A DNA stretch of 64,000 nucleotides from Streptococcus downei MFe28 (GTDB lineage Bacteria > Bacillota > Bacilli > Lactobacillales > Streptococcaceae), in assembly GCF_900459175.1 (NCBI RefSeq), contig NZ_UHFA01000002.1:1612001-1676000 (forward strand), in the 5' to 3' direction. This document shows positions 3,180 to 15,535 of the stretch, one piece after another; the stretch's first letter is position 1, and every line of letters starts with the position of its first letter. The notes under the pieces are model-generated. The model was given only the letters and a program-made list of their open reading frames with translations, ran no database searches and was not told the origin of the DNA. The translations under genes and the position numbers were made by a program.

Positions 3180-3562
3180 TATTTTAAGCTGTATTGTCTG
3201 TCTCGTGTAGAACCTGACATGGCTAAGAGGTCTTTTTCGACAAAGCTTGTCAGATAGCGACGAACACTGGCATGACAATTTATTACTCAAATTTGTCTGG
3301 TCCATAAACCTTAATTTATCAGAGTCAAATTTATTAATTTTTACAGTGAAATTATTTTTCTCTAATGAACCTATTTTTTCCTAATATGGGATAAAATAAG
3401 CGGTCCATCACTATTCTGGTCTGGATTGAATTGAAAAATATTGAATTCGATTTCTTTCAAAAAATCTCGGTCAAGCCAATATCTAATAAAATTATCATCA
3501 TTAAAAATATTAACAGCTTTCCAGAATTTTCCCCTAGATCTTTCCAAGAAGTTCCATAATAT
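3180..3562 (-). pseudogene. Detached 3' part of the KAP ATPase gene
   Basis: Directly beyond the TAA at 3563-3565 the same frame stays open for 63 codons to a TAG at 3371-3373 and reads as plausible protein (for example DDNFIRYWLDRDFLKEI). At a run of six A just before that TAG a shift of one base gives another open stretch (GSLEKNNFTVKINKF, then DSDKLRFMDQTNLSNKL) that continues toward about 3180. This composition matches the low-GC KAP gene and not the flanking intergenic DNA. The simplest reading is that the ATPase once extended about 100 residues further and lost this tail through a stop codon and an indel. No independent start or ribosome binding site is seen. Confidence 0.5.
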
Positions 3563-5092
3563 TTAAAATAGCTTAAATTGATATGTTTTAAAATCTGATC
3601 TTGATAGCTCAGGAAAGTCTATATTAATGCGCTCAAAAGCAATATTATCGCGGTAGTAACAATAATTTACTAAAATAAATAATAAGATGCTATAATCATT
3701 GATTTTAAATTCTTCGAGTTTTGTTTTCCAAAAAATATATAATAACTCCTCAAAGTCAACTTCCACATCATTCTCCCTGATGTACTTTTCGGTTACTCTC
3801 CTAAGTATAAAATCCACAGAATAACTCACATTACCGGTCTTCGCAGGCTCTCCCAACGCAATTTTGAGAAGCATTGTTTTCGTAGTTTCAGGAAAGTTAT
3901 CATATTTATCTTGAAGGTAAATATAAAAGTCACTAATAATTTCAGAATCTGCAATGTAAGAACTGAGAGCTTTTTCATTATCAAAGATATTTTTTAGTTC
4001 TTCGTTTGTCAAATTACTCGGTGACTCATAAACATAGTAATCTTTCTTATTCGTTAGGAAGTCTCTTGGGAGTTGGTGTAATTCTGTTCTCAGGATTGTT
4101 TTGAGAATTTTTGGGATTATATCATCTCCAAGTTCTTCATCTGGTAATAGTAACACGATTTCGTCGTTAAAAAGTTTTGTATACCCGCCTGGATAAAATA
4201 AATAAATGTATATTACTACGAGTATTTGTTCTACCTGTACACGACCATATTTATTTCTATCAATAAATTCCTTGGTAACATAATCATTAAAATGAACTCT
4301 ATCTCTTAAATTCCGTCTCTCTATTATAAAAAGTTGTTTAAATTCCTTACTTAAAGCAATATCATATTTTCTTTCAAACTCTTTGAAATATCCATTCCAA
4401 ATATTTGACGGGTGAAGTCCAAATGGTAAATCAATCCTTCTATCGATAACTTTTGAAAGAAAATTGTCTGGTGCATTATCGTAAACTTTTTCAATATCTC
4501 CAACAAAAACTATTGGAAGTTTTCCATTTAATAATGCAAATAATTTGTACGATTCCTTTTGCTGTCCTTCGGTTAATCTATCAAAGTCGTCAATGATTAG
4601 GAGCTTATTTTTTATTTCAAGCCTTTCAAATTGACTAGCATAAAAAATATCAGATTTGGGTTTAAAAAATTGATAGATGGCAGCTCCTAATGCAATAACC
4701 CCGAATAAAAGGGTTATAAAGTTTGCCCATGCTCCAAATCTTTCATTAATAAAACTTTGTAATCCAAAATTAAATTGGGTCGTAAATAGCAAAGCTATGG
4801 CAACTATGGCAACAAGTAATCCCTTATATGACCTGTATAATTGTGGGTGTATCTTTGAAAAACCGACTTCAATAATCGATCTATTATCAGATAATCGCCA
4901 TAAATCTAATACTACAAAGTCCATATTACTATAACTTTTAACCTCGTTTAGAAAGGTACTCTTTCCTGAACCCCAAGCTCCATTCAGAAAATAGGTTTTA
5001 TTTTCTTCAAAAAGTTTAGCAACATTTTTAGCTGCTTCCCTTGTATCAATATGGTTTAATTCAATAAATCTTGTATCTTTGTTTTTTTCCAA
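3563..5092 (-). CDS. KAP-family P-loop ATPase with two membrane segments, probably C-terminally truncated
   Basis: KAP NTPases are STAND-like ATPases in which a pair of transmembrane helices is inserted between Walker A and Walker B; several act in phage-defence loci. Here Walker A GAWGSGKST is at residues 38-46, two hydrophobic helices lie at about 91-108 and 125-143, and Walker B LLIIDDFDRL at 164-173. This order is diagnostic. The 509-residue reading uses a TTG start at 5092; a ribosome binding site AGAGGAG lies about 13 nt upstream, so the true start is uncertain. It sits 27 nt after hsdS on the same strand and is probably cotranscribed. The reading frame continues past its stop (see 3180-3562), so this copy may be truncated. 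The bound partner or trigger is unknown. Confidence 0.85.
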   Translation of the reverse strand: MEKNKDTRFIELNHIDTREAAKNVAKLFEENKTYFLNGAWGSGKSTFLNEVKSYSNMDFVVLDLWRLSDNRSIIEVGFSKIHPQLYRSYKGLLVAIVAIALLFTTQFNFGLQSFINERFGAWANFITLLFGVIALGAAIYQFFKPKSDIFYASQFERLEIKNKLLIIDDFDRLTEGQQKESYKLFALLNGKLPIVFVGDIEKVYDNAPDNFLSKVIDRRIDLPFGLHPSNIWNGYFKEFERKYDIALSKEFKQLFIIERRNLRDRVHFNDYVTKEFIDRNKYGRVQVEQILVVIYIYLFYPGGYTKLFNDEIVLLLPDEELGDDIIPKILKTILRTELHQLPRDFLTNKKDYYVYESPSNLTNEELKNIFDNEKALSSYIADSEIISDFYIYLQDKYDNFPETTKTMLLKIALGEPAKTGNVSYSVDFILRRVTEKYIRENDVEVDFEELLYIFWKTKLEEFKINDYSILLFILVNYCYYRDNIAFERINIDFPELSRSDFKTYQFKLF

Positions 5093-5119: not shown

Positions 5120-6247
5120 TTAGACAAACATGTCCTGTAAAAGTTTCTTCTTCAAAGTTTTAAGTTCTTCGATTTTAGATTGGATTGATGATGTTAAATT
5201 GTCTAAGTTGGAGAAGAAAGTACCCAGAACACGTTGTTCATCAAGACTAGGAAATTGTATATAATAATTTCCTAATTGTGGAGCTGTTAATTGAGGAACT
5301 CCCGTCGATTCATTATATATCCTGATAGAATTTATCATATTTTCTAAAAAATCAACATCAAAATCGTTTGATTGCAAACTCAATAATCGAACAATTGGAG
5401 TAAAACTAGTATGACGTGCGATAGCATGGCCAACGTCTCCTCTACCTGTGACAGTAACCGCAGGAGCTTTTACTTTATAATCGTCGTAATATCCAACAAT
5501 ACCTTTGTTGGTCAAGGCATTTGCAACAACAGGATACTTGTCGATAGTTTTAATTCTTGATTTATCTATATCGCCCCCTGCACTAATGTTCATCCTATTT
5601 TTCAGTTTATCTGTTTTCCACTCGCCATCAAATCCAGTTAAGCGGATTTCAGGGACTGTTTGACCATGCTTGGGAAACATTTTAGAAAGCATGGTAGATT
5701 TGAAAGATTTTAACTCTTCTAGCTTACGCTGATGAAGAGTAAGGAGGGTGTCCAACTGACGGAAAAAGTCACCAATGACGGTTTGTTCGGTAGAAGTTGG
5801 TAATATGACTGAAGCATTATTTAAATCAGTAGAATTTATACTTTCAAATGTTGAACCTGTGCTTAGTGCATTCCAATAACCTGACTGCTTCATTTTTCCA
5901 AGTATATGAAAAACAAATTCATTTCCTTTAATTGCAGCCACACCACGACCAATAACAACGTCATAATCCGTTTTCCCAACATCTCCTACAGGTGCTCTAA
6001 CACTAATTATCAAGTCCCCTTTTTGTGCTTGCTTAGTTATTTGAGTCGTCCAAACACGAGGAACAACCCGATTATTTTTTATATCTGCATTCCCTTGAAC
6101 AAGAATATGGTCATTTGGGTTTTCTGTGTAGTTTTCAGAACTTGGCGATTGTCCCATAACTATTTTCGCCACTTCCCCCAACTTCTGCTGTTCCCAAGCG
6201 TCAGTATAATTATTAAATCTTATCTTTGGAATTTTTTGCTTTGTCAT
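5120..6247 (-). CDS. hsdS: Type I restriction-modification specificity subunit HsdS
   Basis: HsdS recognises the bipartite DNA target and positions HsdM. The 375-residue protein has two target-recognition domains, each followed by a conserved helical spacer: first TRD about 15-150 with spacer FFRQLDTLLTLHQRKLEELK, second TRD about 205-335 with FFSNLDNLTSSIQ and the terminal KKKLLQDMF. The start ATG at 6247 follows GGAG at 6-nt spacing. It is 13 nt downstream of the membrane-protein gene of the reverse transcriptase module and so is likely transcribed together with it. It appears intact. Target sequence cannot be read from the protein. Confidence 0.93.
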   Translation of the reverse strand: MTKQKIPKIRFNNYTDAWEQQKLGEVAKIVMGQSPSSENYTENPNDHILVQGNADIKNNRVVPRVWTTQITKQAQKGDLIISVRAPVGDVGKTDYDVVIGRGVAAIKGNEFVFHILGKMKQSGYWNALSTGSTFESINSTDLNNASVILPTSTEQTVIGDFFRQLDTLLTLHQRKLEELKSFKSTMLSKMFPKHGQTVPEIRLTGFDGEWKTDKLKNRMNISAGGDIDKSRIKTIDKYPVVANALTNKGIVGYYDDYKVKAPAVTVTGRGDVGHAIARHTSFTPIVRLLSLQSNDFDVDFLENMINSIRIYNESTGVPQLTAPQLGNYYIQFPSLDEQRVLGTFFSNLDNLTSSIQSKIEELKTLKKKLLQDMFV

Positions 6248-6260
6248 TACTACTCCACTT

Positions 6261-6851
6261 CTATTTATTCACTAATTGCCAGTCATCATCAATTTTATTA
6301 TTGCTAATCTCCCAAGGGTTAGAGATGTCAAAGATTTTATACTCGTGATACCTATCTTTTGTATCAAAATAAGATAATCTCACTTCATCGAAATCACTAT
6401 TCAGTTCATTTTTTCCAACGACAAAGTATAGATTGAAACGTTTAATTTCATTACCCCGAATCAAAAAAGAATAAGACTCTTCATTACCAAAAATAAATTT
6501 TTCTTCATCATTTGAAGTAGAGGTTATCTGAATTGTTTGACCAACTCTTTTATTGTCCAAGTAAAGAGTCAAATTCAAATTTCTCACGACTTGCTTTACG
6601 GACTTCGTATTATGAATCTCTAACCATAAGGGAACTTGAAATAGCATATCAGAAATCCCTTGAAAAAATCCCCAAGGTTTCTGATTGGAACGATTATAGA
6701 CGGATTTAATATATAGTTTCACTTTTCCCTTATGCGACAGAAAACTATTAAACAGGGTTTGTGCAAACATACCTATAAGCGTAGACACAAAAGATACTAC
6801 CCCACCGATTAACAACAATTGATATTGAGGATTTTCAAAAAATGATTTCAT
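6261..6851 (-). CDS. Single-pass membrane protein coupled to the reverse transcriptase
   Basis: I do not recognise a named family. The protein has an N-terminal transmembrane helix (LLLIGGVVSFVSTLIGMF) and about 165 residues of predicted beta-rich soluble domain (LWLEIHNTKSVKQVVRNLNL, LYLDNKRVGQ, LYFVVGKNEL). The ATG at 6851 lies 9 nt after the reverse transcriptase stop; a GTG at 6863 would overlap that stop by 4 nt. The GGAGAG at the end of the upstream gene is the likely ribosome binding site, implying translational coupling. hsdS follows after 13 nt. Tight coupling argues that it works with the reverse transcriptase, perhaps as a membrane-anchored sensor or effector; that role is inference. 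Confidence 0.75.
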   Translation of the reverse strand: MKSFFENPQYQLLLIGGVVSFVSTLIGMFAQTLFNSFLSHKGKVKLYIKSVYNRSNQKPWGFFQGISDMLFQVPLWLEIHNTKSVKQVVRNLNLTLYLDNKRVGQTIQITSTSNDEEKFIFGNEESYSFLIRGNEIKRFNLYFVVGKNELNSDFDEVRLSYFDTKDRYHEYKIFDISNPWEISNNKIDDDWQLVNK

Positions 6852-6859
6852 TAAAATTA

Positions 6860-8425
6860 TCACTCTCCATAAATATCCATAAAGCTATCAATATCTGTAA
6901 TATCTGTATTAAGCGTCAAACTTTCAATTTTTTCTTCATCAATAAAACAATTCTCATCTAACCTCTTATCACTTTTTAGCCAGTTTGAATTCCAAAGTTT
7001 AACAGAATTTTTGTCACTTACTTTTTTACACATCCTATTTTTGTAGTCTTTGGTCCTATCAACAGTTAAAGAGATACGTTGAAGCCAGATTTCTACAAAA
7101 TCTGAATTTGGGAGTGATTGATACTTTTTCAGTATCCTATCAATCAAAGCTGGAATTTCTTCTGGAGCTACATATTCAAACAATTTTGCTAGGATAGTTG
7201 CTGATATTTCAATCGTCTTTGGATTATTAATCATAATAGAGACTATTATACTAATCAGTTGAGGAATATCCGAAAGTTGATTTACTTGTGAGTCTAACGT
7301 GCTAATTCTATATTTAAAAAATTCAGTCAGAGCTTTTTTCAATTGTCCACAATTTAGAAATTTATCACCTAGTAACTTTATTTGCAGTAAATGTTTCTGC
7401 ATAGAAAGCTTATATTCTCTGATATGTGATTCTCTTGCAGTCTCAAAATTTATTTTAGTAATTTTATTATAAAAGCCAACATTCTGACTTGTCCAGTAAA
7501 GTTTATCTGGCTTAATAGCATCTACAATAATATCCTTACATAAAAAGGTCTTCTTTGAATTAATTTTTAAATTTAATTCTAGTAAAATCTCAGAAAGAAG
7601 CTTCATTAATCTCTCAGCTACATCAAGCTGATTGGTGAAAATTCTATAATCATCCCGGTATCGTAAAACTTTGAAACCTGTAATACCACATTCTGTTGCT
7701 TTTTTTGACAATAGGATATCAGCATAGCCTAGAACTATCTCTGCGATAAAATCCATCAAGGCACTTCCTTGAGGAATTCCATTAGTTTGACCATTCTGCA
7801 TTTGTCGTATTTTGGAATCTATAGTATTTCCAAGTCCTTTACTTCTATCTTTCTTTGCCCACTCTTTACCATGAATAGCCCATGGGATTGTATGTGTATA
7901 AATTGAAGGATAGCAATCTGTGATATCAGTTTGCAAACAATAATTATAATCTAATGCTAATTCAATTTGTGCCTGCTCTAAATTTTTCCACCAATTTAGT
8001 ATTTGTTCAGCTTGATCTTGTTTTTTTCCTGTTGACTCAAGAGGTACAGATATACAGATAATTTTCTCGTCCGATTGAAAATCACGAAACCTGCTTTTTA
8101 GTTCATCCCAGTTTTCTTCCTTTGTTATCAAACGAACTAAATCAACATACAATATGGGGTGAATTAGTTGTAAACTCCTCCAAGCGTATTTTGCATCTTT
8201 GTTGGTAACTATTGTTAAATTTACATCCGTTGCAAATCTTTTTAATGCCTTTTTTGTGTATATAATACTTTTTAACTCAGATCTCCCCAATATATTTTTG
8301 GCATTCTCTAATAAGTTCTCAACACTAAAATAAGGAGGTAGCTTGATGTTAGAATAGGATGTCGGTTTGAGAAAGAAATCTTGAGCTTCCTTATTCGACA
8401 TATCCAATACACTCTTTTGATTCAT
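6860..8425 (-). CDS. Reverse transcriptase of the defence-associated (Abi/UG-like) kind
   Basis: RNA-directed DNA polymerase of about 521 residues. Motif A reads LQTDITDCYPSIYTH (about 165-178), motif B NGIPQGSALMDFIAE (about 215-229) and motif C YRDD (256-259) in place of the usual YADD; a Lys-containing motif D follows (KINSKKTF). The catalytic aspartates are present. There is no maturase, endonuclease or integrase domain, and no group II intron features are seen, so it is not an ordinary retroelement. About 240 residues after the palm are helical and could serve as thumb plus the extra C-terminal domain of Abi/DRT enzymes. The ATG at 8425 fits AAGGTGG better than the GTG at 8440. It lies between two membrane-protein genes inside an R-M locus, which suggests phage defence. 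The subtype is not determined. Confidence 0.88.
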   Translation of the reverse strand: MNQKSVLDMSNKEAQDFFLKPTSYSNIKLPPYFSVENLLENAKNILGRSELKSIIYTKKALKRFATDVNLTIVTNKDAKYAWRSLQLIHPILYVDLVRLITKEENWDELKSRFRDFQSDEKIICISVPLESTGKKQDQAEQILNWWKNLEQAQIELALDYNYCLQTDITDCYPSIYTHTIPWAIHGKEWAKKDRSKGLGNTIDSKIRQMQNGQTNGIPQGSALMDFIAEIVLGYADILLSKKATECGITGFKVLRYRDDYRIFTNQLDVAERLMKLLSEILLELNLKINSKKTFLCKDIIVDAIKPDKLYWTSQNVGFYNKITKINFETARESHIREYKLSMQKHLLQIKLLGDKFLNCGQLKKALTEFFKYRISTLDSQVNQLSDIPQLISIIVSIMINNPKTIEISATILAKLFEYVAPEEIPALIDRILKKYQSLPNSDFVEIWLQRISLTVDRTKDYKNRMCKKVSDKNSVKLWNSNWLKSDKRLDENCFIDEEKIESLTLNTDITDIDSFMDIYGE

Positions 8426-8462
8426 ACTTATTAGAGCCACCTTCCTGAAAATTTCACTATTT

Positions 8463-8471
8463 ATTATACCA
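8463..8471 (-). promoter_or_regulatory. Extended -10 promoter upstream of the reverse transcriptase
   Basis: On the minus strand the 77-nt gap before the reverse transcriptase contains TGGTATAAT, a perfect extended -10 about 38 nt ahead of the ATG at 8425. It allows expression separate from the upstream membrane gene and would give a short 5' leader. Confidence 0.6.
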
Positions 8472-8517
8472 TCATCTTAGTGGCTTATGTGATTGTTGTC
8501 TGCTGTATTAGTTAATT

Positions 8518-9369
8518 TTATTTTAAATTCTTCGCTAATATCGCTAACATATTTTCCATTTCAACACCATCTGTCTTGACCAATCCTGTATCAACTTTAT
8601 TAAATAGTGAGTTAATGATAATCAGACGTTCATTTTCATTGATTGATTCACCATCATAAGTCAAGGCTTGGAAGAAGCGTGTCATAGCTGCTTTTTGCTC
8701 ATACTCAATAGCCAAATGGTTGTTTGACATTGACAATTTCACAAGTATTCTAATGATGTAAATAAAGAAGGAAATAATAGCAACTACAAAGAAAGATTGT
8801 GATAAGAACGGAATCTTTTTACTTATATCCAGTGGAAATTCATATAGAAACCATACTAGCATTGAAAAAATTAATGCCAACATTATTGAGGCTCCAACGA
8901 GGAAATATGTCCAAAACTTAGCCTTCTTCCGATAATTTTCAGCACGTAAATTCCAAAGTTTTTCAGGCTCTTCTAATTGTAATTTGTTTTTATATGTTTC
9001 TTCAAGCTCTCTTAACTTATTTTCTTTTTCTTCCTCCCATTTCTCCATGTTTTCAGTAAAATTATTCAAATACTGCTGATAAATGAAACTTTTAATTTCA
9101 TCGAGATTAAACTCTTCAATCTTTGAAAAGTGGCCTCTGATTTCATTTATCTTAGAATTGATATCATTCCAACTATTTGTAATGTCAATTGGAATCTCTT
9201 CATGCTCTATAGACTTCCAAATATCCAAATTTTGTTTTGAAATCCTTTCGAGTTCAATAAAGGTTAATTGTTTCTTCTCATAGTTTATAGAGTAATCATC
9301 ATCAACTTCAATTTCAAACCTAATTTTACTATCCATAAGATTAGCAATCTGCTGCTTTGTGTAAGTCAA
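8518..9369 (-). CDS. Two-TM coiled-coil membrane protein (DUF6161/SLATT-like) next to the reverse transcriptase
   Basis: The 283-residue protein has an acidic, Glu/Lys-rich N-terminal half with coiled-coil character (about 75-135), two closely spaced transmembrane helices at about 155-178 and 190-210, and a conserved-looking cytoplasmic tail (TRFFQALTYDG, LFNKVDTGLVKTDG). This layout resembles DUF6161 and SLATT-type two-TM proteins; the latter accompany some defence nucleotidyltransferases and reverse transcriptases and are thought to act as membrane effectors. The start is TTG at 9369, supported by GGAGGGAG 5-7 nt upstream. It has its own promoter at 9417-9422 and lies 92 nt ahead of the reverse transcriptase. 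The family assignment is from memory of pattern only. Confidence 0.7.
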   Translation of the reverse strand: MTYTKQQIANLMDSKIRFEIEVDDDYSINYEKKQLTFIELERISKQNLDIWKSIEHEEIPIDITNSWNDINSKINEIRGHFSKIEEFNLDEIKSFIYQQYLNNFTENMEKWEEEKENKLRELEETYKNKLQLEEPEKLWNLRAENYRKKAKFWTYFLVGASIMLALIFSMLVWFLYEFPLDISKKIPFLSQSFFVVAIISFFIYIIRILVKLSMSNNHLAIEYEQKAAMTRFFQALTYDGESINENERLIIINSLFNKVDTGLVKTDGVEMENMLAILAKNLK

Positions 9370-9416: not shown

Positions 9417-9422
9417 ATTATA
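9417..9422 (-). promoter_or_regulatory. -10 element ahead of the membrane-protein/RT/hsdS unit
   Basis: TATAAT on the minus strand lies 48 nt before the TTG start at 9369 and just downstream of the hicB terminator, so a transcription unit appears to start here. Confidence 0.55.
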
Positions 9423-9455: not shown

Positions 9456-9483
9456 CTAAAAAACACGACAGCCTCGTCGTGTT
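9456..9483 (-). terminator. Terminator after hicB
   Basis: Arms AACACGAC / GTCGTGTT with a six-base loop are followed on the minus strand by a run of six T. It separates hicB from the membrane-protein/reverse transcriptase unit. Confidence 0.8.
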
Positions 9484-12538: not shown

Positions 12539-15535
12539 CTATTGCTTAGCTAACAGGGGATAGATGACCTCTTGGATGAGCTTAAGATAGTCTTCCTTGA
12601 TGGCCTTCTTGTATTTGAGGGGATTGAGGGGTTCAGCGACTTGGGCCTTATAGTCCTGATAGCGCTGGCTGGCGATCAGTTCGCTTTCGCCCGCTTGCTT
12701 TTGCGCCTTAGGGTTATAGTGCTTGGCCAGATAGTAGAGTTCCTCCTCACCGATATACCACTTCCTTGCCAGCTGGGTGACCTCTTGTTCAATGACCTGG
12801 TCAATCATTTCTTCCAAGAGCTCAGTCACCGACTGACCTTGGTAGCTCTGTGGGTCTTTCTGAATGGACTGCCAGAGCTGGCTGACCACCTTGGCCAACT
12901 CAGGCCGGCGCTTGGCTAGATCGGCGATATAGCTATCAATAGTTGTCAAGTCATCTGGTGAAAAGGACTTGACTTCCTTAGCATCTTGACCAATCAGGGC
13001 CTGAATCAGGTTGATAATATAGTCGTAGTTGATGTCATCAACCTGGACGGCCTCCAGCTCATACAGGATATCCAGTAAGTCATCATCAGTCTCCTCGTCA
13101 TCTTCTTGCCGTCTGAGCTTCAACTCCGCTAGAACATTTTGATAGACACCTAAGTAGCTATCTAACTTATCTTGGCTTAGCCCAGCTTCACTATAGACCT
13201 GGTCTTGGTCATACTGACCATAGACTTGAATGGAGGCAAATGCTTTGTCAAACTCCTGATAGGCCTTAGCAAACTGCTTGAGCTGGGCGGTATCCGCCAA
13301 GTCAGGATCAATGCCCAGACCTGCCTGTTCAGAGATATGGCTGCGGAATTGCGCCAGCTTATCATCAAACTTAGCCTTCTCATCCTCCCATTCAGGGGCC
13401 AGAACATAGTTCTCCCCGCCCTTGGAGTAGAGCCAGAGGGCCTTATCCACAGCTTCTTTAAAGGCCTTGGGCTGTTGGAAGGTGATAATCTGACCAAACT
13501 TCTTGTTCTTGTCAAAAATCCGATTGGTCCTGCTAAAGGCCTGAATCAAGTGCTGGGGCTTGAGGGGATTGCGGTCCATAAAGAGGGTCTGAAGGCAGGG
13601 AGCATCAAAACCAGTCAGGAGCCGGTCGACAACGATTACTAAGTCCAACTGCTCCTTGCGGTTGAGATAGCGGTCTTCCTTTCTGGCCAGACGTTTATTG
13701 ACATCGGTATTAAAGCCAGCCAAATCCGCTAGACCAAAATGGGTCCCAAATTCCTGATTATAGTCTTTTAGGGTCTCCTTCATCTTGTCTTGGTTGTAAG
13801 AAGAATCTTCCTCATTTTCTGTCAGAGACTAGGTGATGGTCATCTTTGGAAAATCAGGTAAGAGCTGCTTGGTCTTTTCAGAAATTTTCACACTGCTTCG
13901 ACCTTCTTTGACAGCCTTAATCAGGTCATAGTAGGCCTGGGCCTGCTTGATGGAGGAGACTGTCAAAATGGCATTGTAGGTCTTGCCGATACCATTGCGA
14001 AATCCGAAAAGACGGGCGGGTTTGCTTAGGATATAGCGAAGAACTTCCAGCATGTGCTCTTGGGACTCATAAACCGAGTCAGGGATGGACTTTTCATCCA
14101 GCTCTTCACCAACCGTGGTCTGGTATTCCACCCGAAAACCGAGAACAGCCCCGTCATGGATGGCATTTTTAACGGTATAGGTATGCAGACAGTTGCCGTA
14201 GAGTTCCTCGGTAGTCTGTGCCAGATCACCTAGGGCTGCTCGGCGATTTTCACCAAAGATAGGGGTACCGGTAAAGCCGTACCAGAGGGAATGGATAAAG
14301 AACTTGGACAGGGAGCGTTTGGCCTGAGGCGTTACTGCCCTGTGACACTCATCAACAACGAAAGCGACTCGCAGCTGACGAATCTTATCCTGATTTGCTT
14401 GGTAATGACCCTGATCAAACTTTCGCATCATGGCAGAAATTTTCTGAATGGTGGTTACCACCACCCGCCGTTCCTTACCGGCCAGAGTCTTAATCAGATC
14501 CTTGCTGGAATTGGTCTCATCAATGTCAATGGTATCATTCTGAGCATAGGAGAGAAAGCTAGAGGTTGTCTGGTCATCCAAATCCTTGCGGTCAACGATA
14601 AAAATCGTCTTATCAATGGAAGGGATAGTCAGGAGGTTTCTGGCTACCTTATAGGAAGTCAGGGTCTTGCCTGAACCGGTCGTATGCCAGACATAGCCGG
14701 ATTCTCCGCAATAGCTGGCTTCCTTGACCGCCTCAATAGCATGAATCTGGTAGGGCCGCAGCAAAATCAGGCTCTTCTTGCTATTATCCAGAACAGAGTA
14801 CTGCATGACCAGCTGGTGGGCTTGAGGGATGGATAGGACCGCTTGGGCAAAGTCAAATAGATTGAGAACGGGCTGATTTTCTGTATCAACCCACTTGGTT
14901 AAAAAGCGAGGATTGAGCTTATTCTCCTTGGCTGCTGCAATATAGCGGGTGTCTTCTATATTAGAGATGACGAACATCTGCAGGCTGGAAAAGATGCCAC
15001 GGAACTTGCCCTCCTTATCATATTTTTTGAGTTGATGAAAGGCATCCATGAAGGGGCTGTGCTGACTTTTCAGCTCTAATTGAATCAAGGGCAGGCCATT
15101 GATGAGGAAGGTGACATCCCCTCGGCGGTTATGGTCCAAGTCGTCTTCCGCAAAGGTCTTAACTTGATTGACAATCTCGTAGGAAGATTTTCCGCCAGCC
15201 ACATGGTCACGAAAGAGGACATCTAGATTGATGGTGCCCAGACGGGCATCTTCTCTTTGAATCCGAACCTTGGCAATGCCATTTTCTCCGACCAGCCACT
15301 TGGCTGCTTCATAGTAGTTGACAAAGTTGAGCTGGTTTTGAATTTGCGACTTCTCCTGCTGGGTCAAGGGGTGTCCATCTAGGGCAGGGACATTATTTTG
15401 CTCCAATTTGAGGAAAAAATTATCCCACAGCTCTGCTGGAGTCTTGAGATCTGGCCGATAGGTCCATTGACTGTCGCCACTTATTAGGGTCTGAATTAAA
15501 CGCTTTTCTTGCTGGGTTTCTTGATATTGGGGCAT
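12539..15535 (-). pseudogene. hsdR: Type I restriction endonuclease subunit HsdR, interrupted by one in-frame amber codon
   Basis: HsdR is the ATP-driven translocase and nuclease of type I systems. The two halves are in the same frame, 12539-13783 and 13829-15535, separated only by TAG at 13829-13831; the codons between (SLTENEEDSSYNQDK) continue family sequence, so a full 998-residue protein needs just one changed base (for example a Tyr codon TAC/TAT to TAG). The N-terminal part has the PD-(D/E)xK nuclease (D140, ELK 154-156), Walker A TGSGKT 286-291, DECH 395-398 and the TGTP helicase motif. The distal part has LTGFDAP and QAFSRTNR. Termination before the last helicase motifs should abolish translocation and cleavage unless suppressed. 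Confidence 0.92.

Follow-up and report, generated by a model that had tools for sequence, protein, structure and literature searches.

An Abi-P2 reverse transcriptase and its membrane-protein neighbours in a type I restriction-modification locus of Streptococcus downei

Do a reverse transcriptase (RT) and the two membrane proteins encoded on either side of it form one defence system, or do they merely share a locus? This question is raised by three adjacent minus-strand genes of Streptococcus downei MFe28, which lie in a stretch of 64,000 nucleotides (contig NZ_UHFA01000002.1, positions 1,612,001 to 1,676,000) that is called the window here and from whose first letter all positions are counted. 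In the order of transcription these are gene 1 (8518 to 9369), coding for an AbiZ/DUF6161-type protein, the RT gene (6860 to 8425) and gene 3 (6261 to 6851), whose product and its relatives are referred to as G3. The list of open reading frames (ORFs) agrees with the arrangement given in an earlier note, made from the sequence alone, in which the three-gene layout was proposed as a possible new variant of RT-based defence. The answer reached here is a different one: the RT is very probably a self-sufficient Abi-P2 abortive-infection polymerase and one cassette of a type I restriction-modification (R-M) locus, with gene 1 and gene 3 as separate defence cassettes joined to it in the Streptococcus sobrinus group.

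The family of the RT follows from profile searches, in which the PADLOC AbiP2 model matches with 617 bits over positions 2 to 484 of its 489, as suits the UG/Abi class of defence RTs to which the earlier note had pointed. The next PADLOC models are Drt6 (195 bits), Drt4 (171 bits) and UG14 (168 bits); like AbiK, these are related UG/Abi RTs, and their profile scores amount to at most about one-third of that of Abi-P2. That the enzyme belongs instead to another UG/DRT class, or is the RT of a retron, a group II intron or a diversity-generating retroelement (DGR), has next to no probability. Weak matches to the NCBIfam models for Drt4 (UG15; 132.2 bits), the group II intron RT (53.9 bits) and the retron St85-type RT (26.1 bits) do exist, but they fall far under the curated cut-offs (450 and 300 bits, both equivalog, and 235 bits, respectively) and under the Abi-P2 score, and no DGR model is among the RT profile matches listed, the class being read from profile scores. 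The description of an RT with YRDD and free of intron or retron features is borne out.

The best solved relative is likewise an Abi-P2 (PDB 7r08, 280 bits), matched in two stretches that span the RT domain and the C-terminal helical domain; in the latter, residues 334 to 520 (GTG numbering) pair with residues 332 to 525 of 7r08 at 44 bits. Motif A contributes Asp167 and motif C is YRDD at residues 256 to 259 (codons 7660 to 7649), and no transmembrane (TM) helix is predicted. Passages of the structural report describe Abi-P2 as a trimer in which Tyr61 is required for priming and Tyr46 is not (PMC9508834); Tyr61 aligns with Tyr32 of the RT (codon 8332 to 8330), and the dispensable Tyr46 with Phe17. 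Residue conservation was followed in 44 aligned Abi-P2 ORFs (41 distinct), which were chosen by BLAST alone; viral contigs supply 29 of them, and genomes, plasmids and one phage the other 15. Tyr32 is conserved in 42 of the 44, the motif A aspartate in all and YRDD in 43; the residue at position 17 varies (F in 16, Y in 24, H in two, a gap in two). Two sequences depart from the conserved pattern: L108, a plasmid copy from Enterococcus that overlaps an IS30 transposase gene at its start, and L164, a distant sequence with a 31% match.

The likeness to the Abi-P2 of a P2-like coliphage (7r08) therefore comprises full-length homology over the RT and helical domains, the YRDD motif, the priming tyrosine and the single-gene format, and the RT looks like a standard Abi-P2 polymerase, one more member of a known family. 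In contrast to the E. coli phage proteins, to which it is about one-third identical, it resides in a chromosomal type I R-M locus; the same report has Abi-P2 genes as single ORFs in P2-like prophages, one of which confers resistance to phage T5 (PMC9508834). On plasmids, Abi-P2 is matched at E <= 1e-30 in 119 records, of which 93 are from Enterococcus, and in many of the 60 plasmid matches listed the RT and an IS30 transposase gene overlap; the only such copy aligned, L108, is without the priming tyrosine.

Because Tyr32, the motif A aspartate and YRDD are conserved and the match is to Abi-P2, synthesis of untemplated DNA on the protein's own tyrosine is the best reading of how the RT may work. 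By analogy with its relatives, from which the DNA synthesis, the oligomer and the abortive outcome are all taken, the enzyme would fold into an RT palm and fingers lobe and a helical lobe and would assemble into a trimer or hexamer. Upon a phage cue it would use the hydroxyl group of Tyr32 as its own primer and build a single-stranded DNA without a template, to which it would stay covalently attached, so that phage multiplication would be blocked or the infected cell killed. AbiK is described as likewise template-independent and tyrosine-primed.

Such an RT most likely needs no template RNA, as judged from its class. In line with this, the earlier note had identified no template RNA, Rfam gives no match within the window, and both gaps considered as candidate sites fold like shuffled sequences (z = -0.22 for 8426 to 8517). 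This latter gap, which separates gene 1 from the RT gene, had been given as 77 nt. The RT very probably starts at the ATG at 8425, which is used by the relative P0001 and is aligned with the starts of many others, resulting in a protein of 521 aa and therefore in a gap of 92 nt. Of the two promoters previously proposed, at 9417 and 8463, no more than -10-like boxes are visible: TATAAT is found at 9422 to 9417 and at 8468 to 8463, the latter with TGG in front of it, in the manner of an extended -10 element (TGGTATAAT). A two-hexamer promoter scan listed neither site, and its yield of 25 sites is near chance (20.2 in shuffled sequences, sd 4.3).

Whether the trio is a unit was approached through the company that its members keep elsewhere. 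Abi-P2 matches of more than 380 bits occur in 6 of 247 Streptococcus genomes; at E <= 1e-60, and counting the genome of the window, 3 of 398 genomes have a match in the class and 7 of 395 in the order. The 15 near-full-length loci read are the window, L033, L037 to L040, L042, L098, L099 and L104 to L109, with L104/L105 and L106/L107 as near-duplicates; broken copies or copies cut by a contig end (L041, L043/L044, L100 to L103) were excluded and L108 was kept despite its IS30 overlap, while L163, with no RT ORF over 350 aa called, was left out of the 29 viral loci. A gene for DUF6161 or G3 stands beside Abi-P2 in two of the 15, namely the window and L038 of S. sobrinus DSM 20742, and in none of the 29 viral-contig loci; the other 13 and all 29 have Abi-P2 without either neighbour. 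R-M genes are near Abi-P2 in 11 of the 15 loci (window, L037, L038, L039, L042, L098, L104 to L108), a lenient count from BLAST to few Hsd references and record annotation over flanks of differing length. The proximity of AbiK to R-M genes and of some AbiP2 genes to CRISPR-Cas loci is already noted in sections of a previous work (PMC8934634).

In the loci read there is thus no conserved unit, and by sequence comparison the neighbours of the RT look like unrelated defence cassettes. The RT itself is under purifying selection between the window and S. sobrinus (ratio of nonsynonymous to synonymous substitution, dN/dS, 0.147; dS 0.126), and gene 1 is internally deleted in the former and split in the latter. 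Both findings argue for the RT as a cassette of its own.

Gene 1 (283 aa) starts with TTG behind the Shine-Dalgarno sequence AGGAGGG. The guess that it belongs to DUF6161 was right (PF19658, 188.8 bits with a cut-off of 27), and two TM helices are predicted, as had been claimed; the accompanying coiled coil is a charged stretch of such appearance judged by eye. The protein matches the membrane half of both family profiles, with 139.5 bits to PADLOC AbiZ restricted to profile positions 186 to 394 of 398, whereas the full-length S. sobrinus relative P0146 (424 aa) matches positions 32 to 394. Alignment and tblastn show that gene 1 is near-identical to P0146 on both sides of one missing block of 141 internal residues after about residue 98 (near 9076), which leaves the N-terminal half of the AbiZ profile largely unmatched. 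Its DUF6161 relatives have about 413 to 436 aa, an architecture that gene 1 falls short of. A structural model of the full-length relative (mean predicted local distance difference test score, pLDDT, 61.8) is too poor for judging whether the shortened protein could still work. AbiZ of Lactococcus is reported to bring about premature lysis in phage-infected cells (PMC10984412).

These properties bear on the proposal that all three genes constitute one new defence system with gene 1 as the two-TM effector. S. sobrinus DSM 20742 does share the order gene 1, RT, G3 with the window, but the putative effector is split into two ORFs in the former and short of 141 residues in the latter, where the stretch separating gene 1 from the RT gene also contains a -10-like element. 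DUF6161 is found in 14 of 247 Streptococcus genomes, and 11 further streptococcal loci read (nine full-length, two fragments; from 11 of 12 further genomes, with the locus of G087 left out) have neither Abi-P2 nor G3. A three-gene system is accordingly very unlikely, and the RT as a cassette beside a deleted AbiZ/DUF6161 gene, independent of it, is the preferred reading. Among S. sobrinus and near-identical DUF6161/AbiZ alleles (P0146 to P0156, a handful of sequences), block-wise differences affect the N-terminal third and the middle third, with the membrane part near-constant, and in P0157 the C-terminal part is fused to a recombinase zinc-ribbon domain (PF13408).

Gene 3 had been described as coding for a one-TM, beta-rich protein of no recognized family, translationally coupled to the RT. 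The first part is supported by the TM prediction and by an AlphaFold2 model (mean pLDDT 90.4), in which a long N-terminal helix with the predicted TM segment is followed by a beta-sandwich with generic structural matches. An overlap with the RT gene is not retained: the majority of relatives start near the methionine of the ATG at 6851 in the alignment, and gene 3 (196 aa) very probably starts there and not at the GTG at 6863, therefore 8 nt past the RT stop. As for the family, no model in Pfam, NCBIfam or PADLOC reaches its cut-off and the one weak PHROG match has no function assigned in PHROG; relatives, however, have a recurrent place behind AbiTii elsewhere.

A protein search retrieved 24 homologues of G3, and the family is represented in 11 of 284 Streptococcus genomes, in nine of 395 genomes of the order (two common to the Streptococcus set) and in nine Enterococcus faecium plasmid records, two of which are L110 and L111. 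Eight of the 21 G3 loci read have the gene directly downstream of AbiTii (L077, L110, L111, L125 to L129), and the two ORFs overlap in seven of these eight pairs, with G3 itself broken in L128. AbiTii exceeds the Pfam cut-off in L077, L110 and L125 to L129, and the L111 copy is identical to that of L110. The pairs come from six genomes in four families of Lactobacillales plus the E. faecium plasmids. That the protein encoded directly 3' of AbiTii in this AbiT-type pair is homologous to G3 is supported by the search with profile A1 (E down to 8.9e-75) and by 43% identity over 95% for the L110 protein. In distinction to the AbiTii module, a search of the whole S. downei genome for AbiTii (PF18864) gives no match, and the RT stands upstream of G3 instead.

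Seven of the 21 loci have G3 adjoining hsdS (window, L038, L072 to L076), and the remaining six (L078 to L080, L124, L130, L131), for the most part fragmentary or weakly matched, have neither hsdS nor AbiTii. G3 might on this account be an accessory of type I R-M, a guard or regulator tied to HsdS, whose place behind the RT is incidental. It lies upstream of hsdS in three of the seven loci and downstream in four, and the hsdS-linked copies form two clusters in the G3 tree, in which gene 3 of the window forms a fully supported group with its counterparts in S. sobrinus, P0122 and the hsdS-linked L072 (the long-branch rows L129 and P0141 are uncertainly placed). Yet eight loci have G3 behind AbiTii, and although GmrSD-like and EcoRI-like R-M genes are nearby in the two plasmid records, no R-M genes were found in the six genome loci by BLAST to few R-M references only; hsd loci, moreover, gather many unrelated defence genes. 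An R-M accessory is unlikely on balance, with some chance of being correct. Among the loci read, G3 is a mobile defence partner that stands behind an RT only in the S. sobrinus group, and outside that group both neighbours of the RT occur without it, an outcome that the earlier note had itself named as refuting its proposal; the layout is therefore not taken as a new variant.

Several observations weigh against a fully independent RT. The tight spacing of 8 nt between RT and G3 recurs in S. sobrinus, G3 is under purifying selection like the RT (dN/dS 0.139, dS 0.25), and other, unrelated membrane genes occupy the same tightly linked 3' position after Abi-P2 in L039, L040 and L042, so that some functional coupling of the RT and a 3' membrane gene is possible. 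In addition, the loci were gathered with queries from the window locus or its families, contain near-duplicates and, as regards the 15, are a small and uneven sample. These points could be accommodated if, in the S. sobrinus group, RT and G3 made up a system of two genes, in which the RT would sense the phage and its DNA adducts would switch a G3 effector at the envelope. G3 is a recurrent partner of defence genes elsewhere, and for DRT1 DNA adducts are reported, in passages of PMC13275509, to activate and restrain an effector domain. On the other hand, G3 adjoins hsdS without Abi-P2 in five other loci and follows AbiTii in eight, ten of the 15 Abi-P2 loci and all 28 viral loci with a 3' side have no tight 3' membrane gene, and chance placement is not rare: of the 617 genes in the fetched loci that are longer than 150 aa, 57 (9%) are followed by a tight same-strand TM gene. 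We consider the RT-G3 system quite improbable, and retain the self-sufficient Abi-P2 cassette.

The 3' neighbours nevertheless deserve description. A same-strand membrane gene begins less than 30 nt from the RT stop in five of the 15 Abi-P2 loci: G3 in two, a gene for a four-TM (4TM) protein in L039 (17 nt) and L040 (0 nt, stop and start abutting) and a gene for a 5-TM protein in L042 (27 nt). The 4TM proteins match the PADLOC CBASS-type 4TM effector with 138.1 bits (L039) and 103.5 bits (L040), in agreement with the earlier statement that defence RTs are found beside membrane effectors, and on plasmids the same 4TM family adjoins nucleotidyltransferase genes, two of which, on Lactococcus and Staphylococcus plasmids, are SMODS by Pfam. 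The Abi-P2 and 4TM pairs are located at L039:6993-9442 and L040:7065-9473. In L042:8036-10420, Abi-P2 follows a type I R-M operon and is itself followed after 27 nt by the 5-TM gene, whose product is unrelated to the 4TM protein and, at the thresholds used, matches nothing in Pfam or PADLOC. A tight 3' membrane gene is absent from all 28 viral loci with the 3' side present (the 29th, L142, ends at the RT), and looser TM neighbours are seen in L136 (156 nt) and L141 (78 nt). Given this absence and the background of 57 in 617, the 3' membrane pattern is a lead and not a result.

Taken further, the lead would have chromosomal Abi-P2 of Firmicutes recruit interchangeable 3' membrane effectors (4TM, 5-TM and G3 from the AbiTii system), with the tyrosine-linked random DNA acting as an effector switch rather than as a toxic product and the present locus as a third independent assembly. 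This is a doubtful and speculative proposal; the role of the random DNA made by class 1 UG/Abi RTs is stated as undetermined in the passages of PMC13275509 referred to above.

The surrounding locus gives the RT its setting as a cassette. In keeping with the earlier placing of the trio inside a type I R-M locus, hsd genes lie on both sides of it. Behind G3, after a gap of 13 nt, comes hsdS for the type I specificity subunit (5120 to 6247; Methylase_S, 132.3 bits), followed by a gene for a KAP-family P-loop NTPase with two TM helices (3563 to 5092; KAP_NTPase, 47.7 bits) and an open hsdM (1123 to 2724; 94% identity to the HsdM of L038), all on the minus strand like hsdR on the other side (12539 to 15535). 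The terminator proposed on the hicB side is matched by a terminator-like minus-strand hairpin at 9483 to 9462, 3' of a HicB-like gene, which it parts from gene 1. According to the ORF list and to tblastn against L038, hsdR is interrupted into two ORFs (13829 to 15535 and 12539 to 13783) by an in-frame stop at 13829 to 13831 in this assembly, with homology to the intact 1013-aa HsdR of L038 spanning the stop in the same frame. The KAP NTPase gene also has an early in-frame stop in this assembly, past which tblastn homology to a 611-aa relative continues in frame for about 60 residues (3374 to 3565). Together with the shortened gene 1, these stops look like decay of the defence locus, in which the RT, gene 3, hsdS and hsdM are still open.

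The RT is the sole RVT_1 match at E <= 0.001 across the 2.23-Mb genome. The closest named locus, L038 of S. sobrinus DSM 20742, has a gene order identical to the window. Compared between the two, hsdM shows a dN/dS of 0.078 (dS 0.44) and hsdS one of 0.743 (dS 0.33), and the dS of the RT, well below that of hsdM, suggests a recent, if unproven, exchange of the RT cassette between species. In the streptococcal type I R-M loci L037, L039, L073, L075 and L076, too, exchangeable defence genes are interspersed with the hsd genes or adjoin them: HerA, SIR2-like, PDC-S06, PDC-S50, PDC-S61 and Abi-P2.

With respect to the wider families, the AbiTii/G3 pair and the Abi-P2/4TM pairs are better leads than the trio. 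If the former association is true, the G3-family protein would be a candidate membrane component for the poorly understood AbiTii system and, if the latter pairs hold, Abi-P2 with a CBASS-type 4TM protein would provide a two-gene setting in which to ask what the random DNA does.

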